NCBI GenBank assembly: GCA_002869065.1 | Contig: PKTR01000001.1 | Coordinates: 363,118-427,117, forward strand | Length of the DNA stretch: 64,000 bases | Direction: 5' to 3' | Source: Hyphomicrobiales bacterium | Lineage (GTDB): Bacteria; Pseudomonadota; Alphaproteobacteria; Rhizobiales; Rhodobiaceae | Part shown: positions 8,693 to 16,658 of the stretch, piece by piece | Layout of the letters: the number at the start of each line of letters is the position of its first letter | How positions within the stretch are numbered: position 1 is the first letter of the stretch | Notes under the pieces: generated by a model | What the model was told of the DNA's origin: nothing | The model's input: the letters and a program-made list of their open reading frames with translations, nothing else | Databases searched by the model: none | Translations under genes and position numbers: made by a program

Positions 8693-9538
8693 GTGACGGA
8701 CGTCTCAGGACGCAATACGGCGGACGGTCGGCTGCGCGATTTGGTGAGCGCTGAAGAGCGAGCGGTCGTACCCGCCCAGCCAAAACGTCAGGCATTGGCC
8801 GAGGATCTCGGCAATAACGCGCTCGGTTTCGTCAACGGCTTGATCAAGCGGACTCTTTCGGCCGGAAAGAAGCGCCGGAAAAAGAGTTATACGGTCACTT
8901 TCGAGGACGTCAGCAAGGTCTTCCGGAACCCTGCGGGAACGAAATGGGTTCTCCGCGATGTCTCGTTCCAGGTGCCGCGCGGTAAAAGCCTCGCCATTCT
9001 CGGCAAGAATGGTGTGGGCAAGTCATCCCTGATGAAGTTGATCGCCGGCGTCATTCCGCCAACGCGCGGCGATATCACCCGCATGGCCCGCATTTCGTGG
9101 CCGCTCGGCATGGCGAGCGGCTTCAGCGCGCCGACCTCGGCGCGGGACAATTGCAATTTCGTTTCCCGCATTTATGGTGCGGACGTGGATGAAGTGACGG
9201 AATTCGTTCGCGAGTTTTCCGAACTCGGCGCATATTTCGATGCGCCCGTGAAATCCTATTCGCCGGGTATGCGCGCGCGTCTCGCGTTCGGGCTCAGCAT
9301 GGCAATCGATTTCGATTGCTACCTGATCGATGAAGCGACCTCGGTCGGCGACAAACGCTTTCGCGAGAAATGCGAGGAAGTTTTTGCGCTGCGCCGCAAG
9401 AAATCCGACGTGATCATGATCTCGCATAATGAGGAGACGCTGCGCGCCTATTGCGATATCGCTGCAGTGCTTAACAATGGAAAGCTTCGGTTCTTCGACG
9501 ATATGGACGAAGCTTTCGCCCTATATAAAAGGCTTTAG
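8693..9538 (+). CDS. kpsT: KpsT/BexA-type capsule polysaccharide export ATPase with N-terminal extension
   Basis: ATPase of an ABC-2 polysaccharide exporter, 281 residues. Walker A is LGKNGVGKSSLMK, the signature is SYSPGMRARLAFGLSM (KpsT-type SPGM), Walker B is CYLIDEATSVGD and the switch His is in MISHNEE. The ATPase core starts at about residue 66 (YTVTFEDVSKVF); before it lies a 65-residue basic, probably disordered segment not usual in KpsT, which is normally about 220 residues. The start is GTG at 8693, the earliest in-frame option; a later start would shorten the extension but there is no ATG before the core. Five bases separate it from the KpsE-like gene. No KpsM permease is adjacent. 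Confidence 0.85.
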   Translation: MTDVSGRNTADGRLRDLVSAEERAVVPAQPKRQALAEDLGNNALGFVNGLIKRTLSAGKKRRKKSYTVTFEDVSKVFRNPAGTKWVLRDVSFQVPRGKSLAILGKNGVGKSSLMKLIAGVIPPTRGDITRMARISWPLGMASGFSAPTSARDNCNFVSRIYGADVDEVTEFVREFSELGAYFDAPVKSYSPGMRARLAFGLSMAIDFDCYLIDEATSVGDKRFREKCEEVFALRRKKSDVIMISHNEETLRAYCDIAAVLNNGKLRFFDDMDEAFALYKRL

Positions 9539-9543
9539 GCAGG

Positions 9544-10779
9544 ATGCTTGAGATCCCCAAAACAGCCGAGAAACTGCGCAATCTGGCGCTCGAGTCCAGC
9601 CGCGGCAAACAGACCGGCGAGGCTGTCGTTTCGCCGCGCAAGGACAAGAAGCGCGGCAAGAACGGACTGCCGAGCCGCAAGAAGGCGCGGCGCAAGCCGC
9701 GGCTGTCGTTCCTGATCTGCGTTGTCGCTCCGGTCGTCGCGACCGTGCTCTATTTCGTTTTGATCGCATCCGACCAATACGCCGCGGAGGCGAAGTTCTC
9801 CATTCGCGGCAGCGAAACCCAGACCTCCGGCGACCTGCTTGGCATGATGACCGGGTTCACCGGGTCTTCTGCGAGTTCGACCGATTCCTATATGGTCGCC
9901 TCGTTCATTGAATCCCGCGAACTCGTTGAAAAGCTCGACAAACAGGTAGACCTTCGAAAGCTCTATAGCCGTCCCGAGGCCGACTACCTCGCGAGCGCGG
10001 ATCCCGATTGGCCGATCGAGAAGCTGGTCGAATATTGGGAGAGCATGGTCCACGTCTACTTCGACACCTATTCGGGTATCACCGAGTTCGAGGTCCGTGC
10101 CTTCACCAAGGAAGATGCCGAACTTATTGCCCGTCACGTACTGGCGATGAGCGAGCGGCTAGTCAACGACATCTCGCTTCGTGAGCGCGACGACGCGGTC
10201 GGTGAGGCGAAGTCGGAGGTCGCGCGTGCCGAGAACCGGCTTCGCATGGCCCGTACCGCCGTTGCCAATTTCCGCGAAACCTCGAAGTCCGTCGATCCGA
10301 CCGCCGTTGCGACCGCCGAGCAGGCGATCGTATCGACGCTCGAGGCCGAGTTGGCCCAACTCCGCACCCAGCTGCGTGCGCTGACGTCTATGGCTGAGGA
10401 TGCGCCGCGCGTCGTCTATCTGAAAACGCAGATCGAGGCGCTGGAGAAGCAGATCGAGCACGAAAAGACCAAGGTCGCGATCAACAGCACCGGCGATGGC
10501 GAGACGTTGACCAAGAAACTGAAAATGTACGAAGACCTGCGCACGGAAGAGGGCTTCGCCGAAAAGGCCTATCTCTCGGCGTTGACGTCGCTCGAACGCG
10601 CCCGCGTCGAAGCTGACCGTCAGCAGCGCTACATCGCTGTCTTCGTCAATCCGAAAGTGCCGGAGTACCCGCTGTATCCCGAGCGGCTTCGCTGGACGTT
10701 GATCATCCTGTTCGGCTGCTTCGTGGTTTGGGGTATCGGTTCGCTGACCGTTGCCGGTGTGCGCGATCACGTCAGTTAG
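9544..10779 (+). CDS. kpsE: KpsE/BexC-type inner-membrane capsule export protein
   Basis: Polysaccharide co-polymerase/export family protein of 411 residues. A basic cytoplasmic N-terminus (residues 1-55, rich in Lys/Arg) leads into a membrane segment (about 57-76), then a long periplasmic part with heptad-rich coiled coils (about 205-330, many Glu/Ala/Arg), and a C-terminal membrane segment (about 380-402) after the proline-rich PKVPEYPLYPERL typical of Wzc/KpsE proteins. In group 2 capsule systems this protein bridges the ABC transporter to the KpsD outer-membrane channel. It follows the KpsT-like gene by five bases, so they are co-transcribed. Confidence 0.87.
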   Translation: MLEIPKTAEKLRNLALESSRGKQTGEAVVSPRKDKKRGKNGLPSRKKARRKPRLSFLICVVAPVVATVLYFVLIASDQYAAEAKFSIRGSETQTSGDLLGMMTGFTGSSASSTDSYMVASFIESRELVEKLDKQVDLRKLYSRPEADYLASADPDWPIEKLVEYWESMVHVYFDTYSGITEFEVRAFTKEDAELIARHVLAMSERLVNDISLRERDDAVGEAKSEVARAENRLRMARTAVANFRETSKSVDPTAVATAEQAIVSTLEAELAQLRTQLRALTSMAEDAPRVVYLKTQIEALEKQIEHEKTKVAINSTGDGETLTKKLKMYEDLRTEEGFAEKAYLSALTSLERARVEADRQQRYIAVFVNPKVPEYPLYPERLRWTLIILFGCFVVWGIGSLTVAGVRDHVS

Positions 10780-10810
10780 TGCGTATTGCCGAACCAAACG
10801 TCCACGCGCA

Positions 10811-10850
10811 CGAAAAGTGAGAACCGGTTTTCGGATAAGAATACGCGTCA
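10811..10850. repeat. Rhizobial-type intergenic palindrome, copy A
   Basis: Core CGAAAAGTGAGAACCGG followed by TTTTCGG forms the hairpin of the common Hyphomicrobiales intergenic repeat, with flank AAGAATACGCGTCAAAACAAG. Two related copies lie at 25644-25689 and 62348-62392. The repeat starts 31 bases after the kpsE-like stop and may act as a transcript-end structure. Confidence 0.75.
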
Positions 10851-11051
10851 AAACAAGCTGCTGGAGCCCATCCAGTGGTCAGCGATCCAAGTTGTGCCCT
10901 GGAGCCCGTGAAGCCCAGGGAGCGCCTTCGGGGCGCAAACCGTTAACCATGTTCCTTCACGCCGTGCTAACGATGGTGCGGCGATGCTGGATCGGGAGTA
11001 ATTTACACGAAAGACACACGTTGCCGGACCGATGGGGTTGATGCGGGCACA

Positions 11052-11078
11052 GCGCGAAACGCGCGAAAGCCGCGAAAC
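11052..11078. repeat. Three tandem 9-base units
   Basis: GCGCGAAAC, GCGCGAAAG and CCGCGAAAC follow each other without gap, differing at two positions. They lie about 235 bases before the kpsD-like start codon. They might be a multi-site operator or simple slippage. Confidence 0.6.
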
Positions 11079-11311
11079 AGGTTTGGACGGTGTCGGATCG
11101 ATGCGCTTGGCACGCCGCTGCGTTGACGAATCGGGGGTGGGGCGCCATCAAGAAGCGCGAAGATGAACATCGCCGTCCGCTCTCATTCGAGCGGGCAGTG
11201 TGGGCATGTGTGGCGAAGCTGCAACGCCGCGGGTTGGCCGGTATCGGCACGATCGACGGGAGTGGCTTTCCTGCGAGCAGGATGGTATGAGCGCGTAAGC
11301 GCAGTGATCAC

Positions 11312-12451
11312 ATGAACATGTTCCGAAAAATCAGCAGTTTCGCCATCCTCGTTGCCGCCCTGACCGGGTGCGCCGCCCTGCCGGGCGAGGGGCCGTCGGC
11401 CATCGATATCAAGGCCGAGGATATTCAGAACCTGCCGACCAAGGATTATGTGGTCGTCGATATCGATGCCAAGGTCGCCAATATCGCCGGTCAGCATAGA
11501 GCCCGTGATTTCGCCGAGCATTTTTCCATCAAATCGACCGGACGCGGCCAGTTGGTCGGTGTCGGCGATGCCCTGGTGGTGAACATCTGGGAAGCCGGCG
11601 AGAACGGCCTGTTCTCGACCGCGCAGGCAAAGCAGACCTCCGTCGAAACGATCGTTGACGAGACCGGGCGGATCTTCATTCCCTATGCGGGGCGGGTGCG
11701 TGCGTCGGGCATTCATGTCGAAACGCTGCGCCAGAACATTGAAAACGCACTGCTCGACAAGGCCGTGCAGCCGCAGGTCCAGGTTCTCATCAAGGGCAAC
11801 CAGAGCAACAGCGCTGTCATCGTCGGTGACGTGAACAATCCGGGCCGCCGCGCGATCTCGATCGCCGGTACCCGCGTGCTCGACTTCATCGCCCAGGCGG
11901 GTGGCTCGAAGTTCCCGACCTACGAGACGATGGTCACCATGAAGCGCGGCAACCGCACCGCCGCGGTTCTGCTCGAAAGCCTGTTCGACTTCCCCGAGAA
12001 CAACGTCTATCTGCGGGCCGAGGACAATCTGCTGCTGTCGCACATGCCGCGCAGCTTCACGATCTTCGGCGCCGTTTCCGAGACCAAGGCGGTCAAGTTC
12101 GAGTCGCGCACGGTCACCATGGCCGAAGCGCTCGCCAAGGCCGGCGGTCTCAACGACAACCGCGCCGATCCGGGCGGCGTGTTCCTGTTCCGCTTCGAGG
12201 ATCTGGAAGTCGCCCGCCAGCTCAATCCCAAGGTCGACGAACTCGGCCAGTCGGGCTATCGGGTGCCTGTGGTCTATCGCCTGAACTTCCGCGAGCCGAA
12301 GGCGTTCTTCATCGCCCGTTACTTCGAGCTGCGTGACAAGGACGTTCTCTACGTCGCCAACCATCCGACGGCCGAACTCGGCAAATTCCTGCGCATCATC
12401 GGTCCGGGTGTCTCGGCCGCGCGTGGCATCAACATCATCGCCAACGACTGA
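11312..12451 (+). CDS. kpsD: KpsD/BexD-type outer-membrane polysaccharide export lipoprotein
   Basis: Outer-membrane auxiliary protein of 379 residues. A lipoprotein signal with lipobox ALTGC (Cys19 or so) is followed by a Poly_export domain (about 65-160; GVGDALVVNIWEAGENGLF, IPYAGRVRASGIHVETL) and SLBB-type soluble ligand-binding domains (VIVGDVNNPGRRAIS; AEALAKAGGLNDNRADPGGVF). Such proteins form the ring through which capsular or exopolysaccharide leaves the periplasm. It is separated from the KpsT/KpsE pair by a 532-base gap but on the same strand and almost certainly in the same machine. Confidence 0.88.
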   Translation: MNMFRKISSFAILVAALTGCAALPGEGPSAIDIKAEDIQNLPTKDYVVVDIDAKVANIAGQHRARDFAEHFSIKSTGRGQLVGVGDALVVNIWEAGENGLFSTAQAKQTSVETIVDETGRIFIPYAGRVRASGIHVETLRQNIENALLDKAVQPQVQVLIKGNQSNSAVIVGDVNNPGRRAISIAGTRVLDFIAQAGGSKFPTYETMVTMKRGNRTAAVLLESLFDFPENNVYLRAEDNLLLSHMPRSFTIFGAVSETKAVKFESRTVTMAEALAKAGGLNDNRADPGGVFLFRFEDLEVARQLNPKVDELGQSGYRVPVVYRLNFREPKAFFIARYFELRDKDVLYVANHPTAELGKFLRIIGPGVSAARGINIIAND

Positions 12452-12804: not shown

Positions 12805-12841
12805 AAAACGCCCGGTCGCGCAATGCGGCCGGGCGTTTTTT
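12805..12841. terminator. Bidirectional intrinsic terminator
   Basis: CGCCCGGTCGC - GCAAT - GCGGCCGGGCG forms an 11-bp stem with one G-T pair, followed by TTTTTT on the + strand and preceded by AAAACAAAA, which becomes the T tract on the - strand. It closes the leftward 704-residue gene, whose stop codon is 19 bases away, and can also stop + strand readthrough from the kpsD-like gene. Confidence 0.85.
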
Positions 12842-12859: not shown

Positions 12860-14974
12860 TTACTGGTTGGCGCGAACCGACAGGCCGAGCTGCTGCACGA
12901 TGGCCTGCGGCGCGACCGCGGCGAGACCCATGATCTGTGTGATCGGCAGGGGCTGTGCCGGCTTGGCCTCGACGGTGAGGCGATCCGGATCGGCAAGGAA
13001 CGCGCTGACCGCCTGATCGACCATTTCGGCGAGTGCCGGGCTCTGAACCTGCTGAACGCCCTTGCGCATTTCAAGCAGGATCACCTGGCGGGCTTCTTCC
13101 TCGGACATTTCGCCGTCTTCAGCGGCGAGCTCTATGGCCGCCTGAACCATGCGCTCGTTATCGATCTCGAACTTCGCCGAGCGGAAATTGAGCGTGGCAA
13201 GGGCCGCCTGAGCGGCTTCCGGGTTTTCGAAGACGAGCCGGGGCACGCCGCCGAATTCCGCCGTCATCTTGAACATGCCGGCGCCGCGGACGTTCATCGA
13301 GATCGGCCCGACGGTGAGCACCTGCGTTGCCTCATCCCAGCGCAGCCGGATCTCCTCATCGAAAACGACGGTTTTTATGCCCATCCGGTCGAACAGCACC
13401 TGGGCTTCCCGATCTTCGAGAGCGGTGACCGGCGCGCTGAACTCCTCGATGGTCGAGTTGATGACGGTCGGGATCGAGCCGATGTGGTTGGCGAAGGTCA
13501 TCATCGCGCTCTTGAGCGAGATCGATCCGATTTCCGGTGCCGCCACCTTCAGATTGCGGGTCTCGATCTCCGAGATCAGCGGAATGACCGCGAGCACCAT
13601 CGACGGCGGCGGTTCGCGACCGCTGTCCGAATACTCCGCAATTGCCATGATCGCCGCCGCGGTCGGGAACACCAGATCGCGGAACGAGAAGCGGTCGAGC
13701 GAGAACGCTTCGTTCTGCGGCCCCTTCACGTCGACGCCTTCGAGCACGAACTCGCCGATCTTGTCGGACGAGACGTCGCGCATGGCGATGCGCTCGATCC
13801 GTCCGCTGCCCTCGTCCTTCGGCGGGGCAATCACGACGTCGTCGATCGACAGCCGGTCGAAAGCGAACGAACCGAGCATCGCGAGGGCGTATTGCGCGGC
13901 TTCCTGTTCGCTCGGCTCGTCTCCGAGCATGACGCGGTCGACCAGCGAGATGATGTTCATCTTCGGCTGGCGCATCTTGAACCCGGTGCCGCCGTAGCGG
14001 TTGATCCGGGCGCTGCCGCCTTCGAAGCTGACGGTGATGTCGTTCGCCCAGGCTTCGTCAAGAACCGGATAGAGCGTGTCGTCGACCTGCCCGATAGCGT
14101 AACTCTCCGGGTCGAAAAGGCGGACCAGCCGGCCGATATCGTAGTTGCGGTAACCGACCGAGGCGATCTCATAGGTCATTTCAAGAACCGGGGTCGCTGG
14201 CGGCGTTGCCTCCGGCTTTTCCGCCCCATCGGCAGTTTCGTCGTTGCCCATCTGCGGGGCGGGGGCTTTCTGCGGTGCCGGGATCGCCTGATAGGCCTTC
14301 ACGACCGTGCGCCCGGACTGAACACTCTCGATCACGCCGCCCTTCTGGTTGGTGACGATCAGATCATTGTAGACCGTGTGCTGGCGGTTGTTGTCCGGCC
14401 CGACCTGATCGATCTCCAGGCGGGTGATCGCAGCACGTTCGGCCTCAAAGGCTGCCGTCCAGCGCAGATACGGGTAGTAGCGCGAGAACGGTCGCGCCGG
14501 GTCGTCCTGTATCACCGGCAGGCTCGGCCAATACATGCCGTCGGCCTGCCAGCCATCAACCTTGCCGGTCAGCGTGAAATCTTCGAGACCTTCGACGCTC
14601 ATGGTGAAGGTGCTGCCGTCGCCTGTCGCGGCACGCTCGATCTCATAGCCGTCGGTGGTCTTGACCGCACCTTTGACGGTGGCGCTGGGGGCAGTGAAGC
14701 CGACATTGATGGTGAAGCCGCCGGCCTGGCCGAACGACATGGTGATCGGCCATTCGATGGCGATGTCGCTGACGATCGCGACGCCGGTCGCGGGATCGTC
14801 CTCGATGGCGCCATGATCGACACGGGTCGCGCCAAGCGCACGCAGGCCGTCGAAATAGTCCTGCAAGGCGGCAGCCGAGTCGCTGGCGAGTGCGGCGCCC
14901 GGCGACCAGAGCGCAACGGCGAAGCAGATTGAAGCGAACCCGACGGAGGTCCGGGATGGGGCATGCACTCTCAT
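12860..14974 (-). CDS. Large secreted protein of unknown function (paralogue A)
   Basis: I do not recognise a named family. The protein has 704 residues with a Sec signal peptide (MRVHAPSRTSVGFASICFAVALWS..., cleavage near ALAS at about 31). The rest is soluble, with alternating short beta-like stretches and no further membrane segment. From about residue 400 to the end it aligns by eye with the neighbouring protein encoded at 15136-16311: ETRNLKVAAPEIGSISL against EAKNLVIADNEIKRLPI, and the C-terminal PITQIMGLAAVAPQAI against PVAQIVGTAMVAPQTI. A proline/alanine-rich linker (AIPAPQKAPAPQ) lies near residue 235. The ATG is preceded by TTTAGGGAGAC, the same leader as its paralogue, and a terminator follows the gene. 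A periplasmic lipid- or polymer-handling role is only a guess. Confidence 0.8.
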   Translation of the reverse strand: MRVHAPSRTSVGFASICFAVALWSPGAALASDSAAALQDYFDGLRALGATRVDHGAIEDDPATGVAIVSDIAIEWPITMSFGQAGGFTINVGFTAPSATVKGAVKTTDGYEIERAATGDGSTFTMSVEGLEDFTLTGKVDGWQADGMYWPSLPVIQDDPARPFSRYYPYLRWTAAFEAERAAITRLEIDQVGPDNNRQHTVYNDLIVTNQKGGVIESVQSGRTVVKAYQAIPAPQKAPAPQMGNDETADGAEKPEATPPATPVLEMTYEIASVGYRNYDIGRLVRLFDPESYAIGQVDDTLYPVLDEAWANDITVSFEGGSARINRYGGTGFKMRQPKMNIISLVDRVMLGDEPSEQEAAQYALAMLGSFAFDRLSIDDVVIAPPKDEGSGRIERIAMRDVSSDKIGEFVLEGVDVKGPQNEAFSLDRFSFRDLVFPTAAAIMAIAEYSDSGREPPPSMVLAVIPLISEIETRNLKVAAPEIGSISLKSAMMTFANHIGSIPTVINSTIEEFSAPVTALEDREAQVLFDRMGIKTVVFDEEIRLRWDEATQVLTVGPISMNVRGAGMFKMTAEFGGVPRLVFENPEAAQAALATLNFRSAKFEIDNERMVQAAIELAAEDGEMSEEEARQVILLEMRKGVQQVQSPALAEMVDQAVSAFLADPDRLTVEAKPAQPLPITQIMGLAAVAPQAIVQQLGLSVRANQ

Positions 14975-15054
14975 GACGGTCTCCCTAAACAGCCTTTTCG
15001 CAAATCATACACCCGCAGGCGCAATCGGACGAGCCCGGGCTCCAATGAGCAAAC

Positions 15055-15080
15055 GCTGCGCGCCGTTTCCGGCGCGCAGC
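15055..15080. terminator. Perfect 10-bp hairpin between the two secreted paralogues
   Basis: GCTGCGCGCC - GTTTCC - GGCGCGCAGC lies in the 161-base gap after paralogue B and before paralogue A on the reverse strand. There is no T tract, so it may be a transcript-end stabiliser or a weak, Rho-aided terminator. Confidence 0.5.
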
Positions 15081-15135
15081 ATCGCGTGTGCAAATGTGCA
15101 GCGATGCGCTACGGGCGCGCATCCAAGCGACACGG

Positions 15136-16311
15136 TTAGTCGTTTGACAGTTCCACGCCGAGCACGTTCGGGATGGTCTGCGGGGCGACCATCGCGGTGC
15201 CGACGATCTGCGCAACCGGAACCGGTGCCGGCGGGTTGGCCGTTGCGACAATCGCCTTGCGTTCCTTCAGGAACGTGCCGGCAGCGGTCGCGACCTTCTG
15301 CTGGAACTCGGGGTTCTGCAGCGCGGCCAGCATCAGCGGCAGGGCGCCGGCGAGCTGTGCGGCCAGTGCATCGCGATCCGTGCCCATCTGCTTGGCCTGG
15401 GCGTCGAGCGCGCGTTCCACGACCGAGTCGTTGTCGAAGCGCACCGACAGGCCTTCAACGGTGAGGCCCTGCAGCAGACCCATTGCCTTTTCCGGGCTCT
15501 TTTCGTTTTCGAGCGCCTTGAGCTGCGCGATCACGTCCGGGGTGAGGCCGCCGATGCGGGCCATCATCGAGAGCTTGCCGACGTCATCGGCGCTCAGCGT
15601 GAGGTTCTTGATTTCGCCAATGCCGGCGCCGTCGTCCCAGGCGCCATCCATCGTCACCGACAGGTTGACGTTCTCATAGCCGAGCATGCCGAACATCTTC
15701 TGGCCTTCGGCATCGAGCATCTCCTTGGTTAGACCGATGCCGGTGACGTTGAGCATGAAGCTCTTCGGGATATCGCCGACATACTCGCCGATTTCCACGG
15801 TCACGCTCTCGATCGGCAGCCGCTTGATCTCGTTGTCGGCAATGACGAGGTTCTTGGCTTCGGCACGGCTGTATTTCACTTCCGAGCCGAGCGCATCTTC
15901 GCCCGCCGCCTTGATCGCTTCGATCGTCGGGAAGGCGACGTCGTTGGCAACCATGCTGCCCATGGTGACGGTGACGTCGTCGGCGACGATCTTGAGACCT
16001 TCCATGGTCATCTGGTCGGCCTTGATCACGCCGTCGGCGACCATGCCGTCTTCAAAGGCTACGCGCGCGATCGTCATCATGCCGGCTTCGCCATCGGCAG
16101 TGACCTTGGCGGACACGTCGAGGATTTCGGCGTTGCCGCCGCCCGAAACGGATCCAATGGTGACCTCGGTCGCACCCGTTGCTTCCAGATCGGCCATCAG
16201 CGCATCGGCAAGATCGTTGCCCGAGGAGTCGAAGGCATAGGCGGCCGGCGCAAAAGTCAGAAACGTCGTGACGAGAAGCGCCTTTGCGCTGTTCGAGGTA
16301 ATCCGTTGCAT
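15136..16311 (-). CDS. Secreted protein of unknown function (paralogue B)
   Basis: 391-residue protein with a clear signal peptide (MQRITSNSAKALLVTTFLTF..., cleavage near AYA at about 25). No named domain is recognised; the body is rich in Asp/Glu/Ala/Val and predicted as beta strands followed by a helical stretch (about 290-350), ending in VPVAQIVGTAMVAPQTIPNVLG. That end and about 290 residues before it resemble the C-terminal part of the larger protein encoded next to it, so the pair arose by duplication. I chose the ATG at 16311 because AGGGAG precedes it and the signal peptide starts there; an upstream start would put 43 unsuitable residues in front. Confidence 0.82.
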   Translation of the reverse strand: MQRITSNSAKALLVTTFLTFAPAAYAFDSSGNDLADALMADLEATGATEVTIGSVSGGGNAEILDVSAKVTADGEAGMMTIARVAFEDGMVADGVIKADQMTMEGLKIVADDVTVTMGSMVANDVAFPTIEAIKAAGEDALGSEVKYSRAEAKNLVIADNEIKRLPIESVTVEIGEYVGDIPKSFMLNVTGIGLTKEMLDAEGQKMFGMLGYENVNLSVTMDGAWDDGAGIGEIKNLTLSADDVGKLSMMARIGGLTPDVIAQLKALENEKSPEKAMGLLQGLTVEGLSVRFDNDSVVERALDAQAKQMGTDRDALAAQLAGALPLMLAALQNPEFQQKVATAAGTFLKERKAIVATANPPAPVPVAQIVGTAMVAPQTIPNVLGVELSND

Positions 16312-16658
16312 GTGAGTCTCCCTAAAGCTTCGAAATGCCCCGAGGTTCGGCGCCGTTTCGCCTGCCCCCCCGGAAGTGATGATATGCCCGCGGCAAGGCC
16401 GAAAGCAGTCTGCAATATCTCCACGCAGGCGCATCCTCACGGATGAGCACCAGACATGGTGTTGAATGTGTCGGCAGTCAGTACGTCGAACTCTCCGAAT
16501 GCCTACAAGGCGGTGTTACCGATAAATGAGACACATTTGTGTGATGGTGCATCACACAAATGAAGTATTCGAGCTTCCCCACCGCGCGAGGGCGCAGCGA
16601 CGGCGGAAGACCGATCAATTAAAGCCACGCACGCTCAAACGATTGGCGGCGGCGTTGA
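16312..16658. other. Intergenic region between PfkB kinase and paralogue B
   Basis: 347 bases with no supported gene. The leader TTTAGGGAGAC abuts the paralogue B start. The notable element is the perfect 12-bp inverted repeat at 16535-16561, described separately. Confidence 0.5.
16535..16561. promoter_or_regulatory. Perfect 12-bp inverted repeat, possible operator
   Basis: ATTTGTGTGATG - GTG - CATCACACAAAT is fully complementary over 12 bp with a 3-base spacer. It sits about 225 bases upstream of paralogue B and 98 bases beyond the stop of the pfkB-type gene. The symmetric, AT-containing sequence in a GC-rich genome suggests a dimeric repressor site (GntR- or LacI-like size) or a transcript hairpin; there is no T tract. 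Confidence 0.55.

Follow-up and report, generated by a model that had tools for sequence, protein, structure and literature searches.

A tandem pair of short and extended proteins from an unnamed, mainly alphaproteobacterial exported family, with a possible role in the cell envelope

A 64,000-nucleotide stretch of the genome of a Hyphomicrobiales bacterium (GCA_002869065.1, contig PKTR01000001.1; hereafter the window) encodes, at positions 12,860 to 16,311, two predicted exported proteins in tandem, referred to here as the short (391 residues) and the long (704 residues) protein. Our leading reading, a tentative one, is that the two represent a short and a lengthened form within an exported family that has no name and occurs mainly in Alphaproteobacteria, and that the concave face of their shared domain may bind a hydrophobic ligand in some role in envelope homeostasis. 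When the order was searched with the long protein, about half of the sampled genomes (153 of 297, counting this one) gave matches, yet the family reaches no Pfam model.

The paralogous pair and the extended form

A search of the same genome with the short protein returned, at E <= 1, only the query itself and the long protein, which aligned at 26% identity over residues 79-387 of the query (E 2.2e-16). Profile-profile alignment of residues 28-391 of the short protein with residues 353-704 of the long one gave a probability of 100 and E 1.7e-52; the two proteins are paralogues, similar far beyond chance. A preliminary description of this DNA had reported exported tandem paralogues with a common C-terminal part, which these comparisons, and signal peptides judged by eye, bear out; the motifs it quoted, PITQIMGLAAVAPQAI and PVAQIVGTAMVAPQTI, are present in the translations of the pair.

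The open reading frame list, family-library searches and homology searches place the short gene at 15136..16311 and the long gene at 12860..14974, both on the minus strand, as are all parts of the proteins given below. The short gene would be transcribed first, and the long gene follows after 161 bp. The first listed start of the short frame is an upstream GTG, which would give 434 residues, and the ATG at 16311 heads a normal-looking signal peptide. Both proteins begin with what appears by eye to be a Sec-type signal peptide without a lipobox, predicted from the sequence and a motif survey of relatives to cover residues 1-26 of the short protein (16234..16311, cleaved between APAAYA and F) and residues 1-30 of the long protein (14885..14974, cleaved between GAALA and S). 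That survey, a simple regular expression applied to a set that takes in the window pair and one fragment, found an AxA site near the N-terminus in 24 of the 27 short sequences and in 32 of the 36 long ones, and a possible lipobox in one sequence of each form.

The mature short protein (residues 28-391; 15139..16230) is modelled as a curved beta-sheet followed by C-terminal helices. Its counterpart in the long protein, defined by the profile-profile alignment, is residues 353-704 (12863..13918), the modelled part of which (about 374-704) has a JlpA-like predicted fold. Ahead of it lies an extra N-terminal part, residues 12-352 (13919..14941), in which residues 12-191 resemble the N-terminus of the short protein (residues 10-160; probability 98.5, P 3e-15, a figure helped by the signal peptides included in the alignment). 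The N-terminal half of the long protein also matched its own C-terminal half (121 columns, probability 90, P 1.5e-6), and when the same genome was searched with the short profile, positions 11-145 of the model separately picked out the N-terminus of the long protein (E 3.8e-5). By these three matches, sequence of the family itself makes up at least part of the extra half, and the long protein looks like a family member that has been duplicated or extended. The half gained by the larger protein, as the preliminary description had it, is therefore present, but it is not simply an unrelated addition.

Probable remote relatives and predicted fold

Neither window protein has a significant match in Pfam, NCBIfam or PHROG. 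The long protein gave nothing beyond chance-level matches to Pfam Myco_19_kDa (E 0.24) and to two PHROGs (E 0.22 and 0.28), and neither protein matches DUF945 (PF06097), the group of YdgA, in Pfam up to E 10. Three of 25 short members do match DUF945, in overlapping central regions (E 8.6e-6, 7.4e-5 and 0.041), with 25.5, 22.4 and 13.4 bits, all below the Pfam gathering score of 26.8; in the 61 related genomes, a set that includes this one, no DUF945 match exceeds the Pfam cut-off. The mature short profile scored 58.6 against an anchor-free DUF945 profile (P 7e-7), and 60 decoys reached at most 30.2; with N-termini kept, the score was 44.6 and 100 decoys reached at most 29.5. Decoys throughout were block-shuffled columns, 25 to 100 per test; the anchor-free DUF945 set leaves out L107 and L112, and the 19-sequence DUF945 profile leaves out 11 of 30 DUF945 loci. 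It is probable from these profiles that the family is remotely homologous to DUF945 without being a member of it.

Similar comparisons were made with AsmA (PF05170) and DUF2125 (PF09898), using sets from related genomes and, for AsmA, an alignment of partly truncated proteins. Against AsmA the mature short profile scored 22.7 (25 decoys, best 29.4) and the long profile 22.6 (decoys to 30.9); against DUF2125 both scored 26.5, with 25 decoys reaching 26.2 for the mature short profile and decoys to 28.8 for the long one. Membership of either family was rejected, the scores being at decoy level. The preliminary statement that the proteins fit no family thus holds in that no library family was found over threshold, but the short profile is remotely and significantly related to DUF945/YdgA, and JlpA is the nearest fold. 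The pair has no clear match to a characterised family such as the YdgA-like or AsmA-like proteins; the relation to DUF945 is below threshold and to a family without assigned function.

Some proteins elsewhere combine features of both groups. In L208, which does not belong to the class, an N-terminal segment of 44 residues that resembles DUF945 (E 1.9e-4) is joined to the C-terminal domain of this family, and one of the three tandem genes at L213 showed a similar N-terminal DUF945 match (E 1.1e-4) that was not repeated in a later Pfam scan. Such bridging proteins were rejected as proof of a DUF945 link; they rest on N-terminal segments and fall to decoy level without the anchors. A 2.0-Mb genome (G473) holds four DUF945 matches, two of them in one open frame of 1127 residues, which suggests a DUF945 tandem fusion.

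The AlphaFold (AF2) model of the short protein, built on an alignment of three sequences, shows roughly twelve long strands and, after them, C-terminal helices, with a predicted local distance difference test score (pLDDT) of 80.8 and a predicted template-modelling score (pTM) of 0.73. Foldseek placed two chains of JlpA (3uau) first for this model at probability 1.0 (E 5.9e-5 and 1.4e-4); the match after these had E 0.07. VIA-align also placed JlpA first, with Z 11.8 over 254 residues at a root-mean-square deviation (rmsd) of 4.9, followed by outer-membrane barrels with Z of at most 10.0 and rmsd mostly of 7-10. The JlpA structure, which Kawai reportedly described in 2012, is said to have a hydrophobic basin. 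Mean pLDDT of the long model was 49.7 overall and its N-terminal half was unusable; its C-terminal half again found JlpA first (Foldseek E 9.4e-5; Z 11.1), and its second match was a segment of apolipoprotein B-100 (Z 10.3). Both models were built on the same three sequences, so the JlpA matches are not independent. In a viral model library the best match was a mimivirus chorein-N protein (E 6.3e-4, template-modelling (TM) score 0.24); chorein proteins transfer lipids. Sequence and profile searches of PDB for the pair did not find JlpA; one returned nothing and the others only weak matches, such as those to eS17 (E 0.034) and titin. For the 19-sequence DUF945 profile, which did not reach JlpA either, the sole PDB match was the signal peptide of an OmpA (E 2).

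Along the predicted strands hydrophobic and polar columns alternate more than in shuffled controls, with 100 of 5000 shuffles reaching the same level. The invariant positions of the short family (L348, P360, P377 and L384) lie in the C-terminal helices and tail, not in the sheet, and the conserved C-terminal tail of the family reads P-x-P-V-P-x-x-Q-I...A-P-Q...L-P-x-x-L.

What the two proteins may do

Under the hydrophobic-ligand reading both proteins would be exported, as their predicted signal peptides indicate, and would be soluble in the periplasm. Their common domain is predicted to form a strongly curved, open antiparallel beta-sheet with C-terminal helices and the conserved tail, and its concave face might bind a hydrophobic ligand, such as the acyl chain of a phospholipid, a lipoprotein or lipopolysaccharide (LPS), with a putative role in outer-membrane or envelope homeostasis. 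The long protein would present a longer surface, made partly from the family's own repeats. A surface of this kind is suggested because the sheet is curved and open, its strands show some alternation, the proteins appear to be exported, and the fold resembles some lipid-handling folds. A study of Klebsiella lists ydgA in a transposon-directed insertion-site sequencing (TraDIS) table for colistin, with log2FC (fold change) of -3.36, beside LPS, tol-pal and envelope-stress genes (PMC5309761), a listing that fits an envelope role.

Several observations weigh against this reading. A curved sheet with alternating strands is not in itself proof of lipid binding, and the alternation is weak (about 0.02), with several strands showing none. 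Likeness to the JlpA-type fold (3uau) was seen in predicted models only, with low TM-scores of 0.35-0.40 and rmsd of 8-9 in Foldseek, as can happen when sheets are differently curved. In PMC10027602 JlpA is described as a surface lipoprotein and adhesin, not as a lipid carrier. The relation to DUF945 is remote: none of 31 long members had a DUF945 match in the Pfam scan, the long profile failed against DUF945 (P 0.027 and 0.022), a set widened with class-level relatives scored lower (35.3, P 0.0013, run without decoys), and the possible bridging proteins scored 22.1 once their anchors were removed (P 0.064, decoys to 23.5). YdgA of E. coli is labelled swarming motility in a proteomics table (PMC12136435), a neutral entry that does not single out lipids. 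Genes that neighbour family members (aspS, rnd, ppx, ppk, pfkB and EAL) indicate no lipid pathway. In the literature no ligand, lipid or phenotype data on the family were found; word searches returned no paper on it, which is a weak test for a family without a name, and YdgA is not mentioned in the accessible part of PMC8593681.

It is possible, if somewhat doubtful, that the pair are instead periplasmic scaffold, chaperone or protein-binding proteins, whose sheet and tail would bind outer-membrane proteins or cell-wall enzymes and no lipid. Because the invariant positions fall in the C-terminal helices and tail and not in the sheet, as fits a docking surface, we consider such a role nearly as likely as a hydrophobic-ligand role; JlpA, the nearest fold, is moreover described as binding the host protein HSP90-alpha (PMC10027602). 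However, no such partner is consistently encoded alongside in the regions examined, and an apolipoprotein B segment and a chorein-type protein are also among the fold matches. The hydrophobic-ligand reading has a bolder form, which we think unlikely, in which the pair are unrecognised soluble periplasmic carriers of Alphaproteobacteria, one a short and one a partly duplicated, extended half-barrel, that pick up a hydrophobic envelope component, and DUF945/YdgA, JlpA and this family make up one lipid-handling superfamily.

Genomic setting, distribution and known systems

Gene neighbourhoods were compared in a selected sample of 21 regions, 20 chosen from the matches plus L062, in which L066 and L067 share a genome, as do L074 and L075. 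At least two family genes lay on one strand in 11 of the 21, and in 10 of these the genes as called either overlapped or had fewer than 240 bp between them. The gene aspS was within the region in 16 of the 21, and in seven of the 16 (L063, L064, L068, L071, L077, L079 and L080) rnd, ppx and ppk were present as well; the names aspS and rnd, and hda for a further neighbour, are ones we take to apply. At L063, a locus from the same genus, Pfam supports a class II tRNA synthetase with a GAD domain, a 3'-5' exonuclease with HRDC, a polyphosphate kinase and Ppx/GppA. Near the window pair the genes supported by Pfam are PfkB, CSS-motif/EAL and IlvD; no open reading frame in the 64-kb window matched an aspS reference, and the side where L063 has aspS is occupied by a gene for a Poly_export/SLBB protein (11312-12451). 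The neighbours probably reflect a stable chromosomal address, without a direct hint of function.

The Poly_export/SLBB gene belongs to a group at 8693-12451 with an ABC transporter ATP-binding protein and a protein without a Pfam match, whose sequence suggests a polysaccharide co-polymerase. This is likely a capsule or exopolysaccharide export locus.

The short protein as query matched in 24 of 61 related genomes. The short profile matched in 41 of the 289 genomes searched from the class and in 50 of the 299 searched from the phylum; of these 50, five lie outside the class. Each query can retrieve both forms, and copy counts are lower bounds, with at most three candidates scored per genome in the order and at most six in the class and phylum. 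Plasmid records were matched as well (86 by the short and 98 by the long protein), largely from Rhizobium and Sinorhizobium and including pSymB of S. meliloti 1021; among the 20 plasmid matches listed per query, the match was a hypothetical protein, had no gene listed, or fell in an unannotated record.

On a tree built from 90 shared domains, 3 changes are enough for the short label and 3 for the long one, versus 22.6 and 28.5 in shuffles, and from this clustering by type the short/long split looks old, though neither form was shown as one clade and the bootstrap of the 90-row tree had not settled. The family sets omit open reading frames cut by the locus end and the pieces of an interrupted copy at L049; the fragment L011:2816-4047 was omitted from set A1 and the tree only, and near-identical copies (L041 short; L041, L046, L047, L056 and L058 long) from sets A1 and A2 only. 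At the thresholds used some genomes have one form only, for example short in G018, G021 and G028 and long in G020 and G044.

The long copy at L049:1489-3510 is broken by one TAA stop and is possibly a decaying copy or a sequencing error. At L074:7960-12584 three tandem family genes (682, 395 and 379 residues) stand beside aspS, and that genome has another copy at a separate place (L075). In another alphaproteobacterium, L213:1882-7008 carries three tandem family-like genes (461, 687 and 477 residues as called) whose N-termini look like anchors; this may be the same arrangement in a membrane-anchored form.

The preliminary suggestion of a periplasmic system of their own was not borne out, as the searches, within their reach, also show long and short proteins occurring singly, and the regions examined revealed no partner gene for lipids or the envelope next to family genes; taken as a whole, that interpretation is partly supported. 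A stricter form of partnership, in which long and short proteins make one obligate two-subunit complex of an extended surface with a cap or dimer, seems to us decidedly unlikely. It would suit the finding of family genes side by side on one strand, with under 240 bp between them, in 10 of the 21 regions and the strong clustering by type, by which the pair would be old, but the genomes with one form only, the three tandem copies at L074 and an inverted repeat between the window genes speak against it. That the proteins act outside the cell as surface adhesins in the manner of JlpA is very improbable, for although JlpA is the top structural match of both, it is a surface lipoprotein (PMC10027602), the window proteins lack a lipobox, which is rare in their relatives, and the family's wide spread through the order, together with its synteny with housekeeping genes, fits better with a role in the cell.

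Three inverted repeats lie around the genes, the first two marked by an inverted-repeat scan. Directly past the stop codon of the long gene is a 15-bp GC-rich inverted repeat, 93% complementary and with A and T runs on its flanks (12805..12839), which is probably an intrinsic terminator; a terminator scan gave here only a smaller overlapping site on the plus strand, and its total of 2 sites versus a shuffle mean of 3.6 is not above chance. Between the short and long genes is an 11-bp perfect inverted repeat (15055..15080), which may be an attenuator or a weak terminator but is absent from the terminator-scan list. The third, a perfect 13-bp inverted repeat with a 3-bp spacer (16534-16562), separates pfkB from the short gene; it is one that the terminator scan lists as terminator-like and which could be an operator or the terminator of pfkB. 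As a regulon site it was rejected, being unique in the genome at <=3 mismatches, and four other loci scanned have no comparable repeat upstream of a family gene.

Among known systems, DUF945/YdgA shares with the short family a D-x-G-x-L strand that leads into a GG/NL-type turn and, close to the C-terminus, a P-V/L-P-x-x-Q/F stretch, as well as profile similarity over the short family's C-terminal part, a similar length and an N-terminal hydrophobic segment. Many of 30 DUF945 sequences start with MKK...W[YF]TG, which we take to be an uncleaved membrane anchor, whereas the window pair have cleavable-looking AxA signal peptides. JlpA of Campylobacter jejuni (PDB 3uau) is the nearest solved fold for both models, at 7-10% identity in structural alignments, but it is a surface lipoprotein with a lipobox cysteine, and the window proteins have ordinary signal peptides. 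The likeness to AsmA-like and chorein lipid-transfer proteins consists of the chorein-N fold match, and there is no profile similarity to AsmA proteins of related genomes. DUF2125 is likewise a family without assigned function and occurs in the same genome and in 25 of 41 relatives, but its profile likeness is at decoy level only. The family is best seen as a divergent variant with DUF945-like sequence and a JlpA-like fold, unnamed in the libraries searched, and not as a new kind; its placement near both offers three poorly understood envelope groups one testable structural hypothesis, in which an open half-barrel would hold a hydrophobic ligand.

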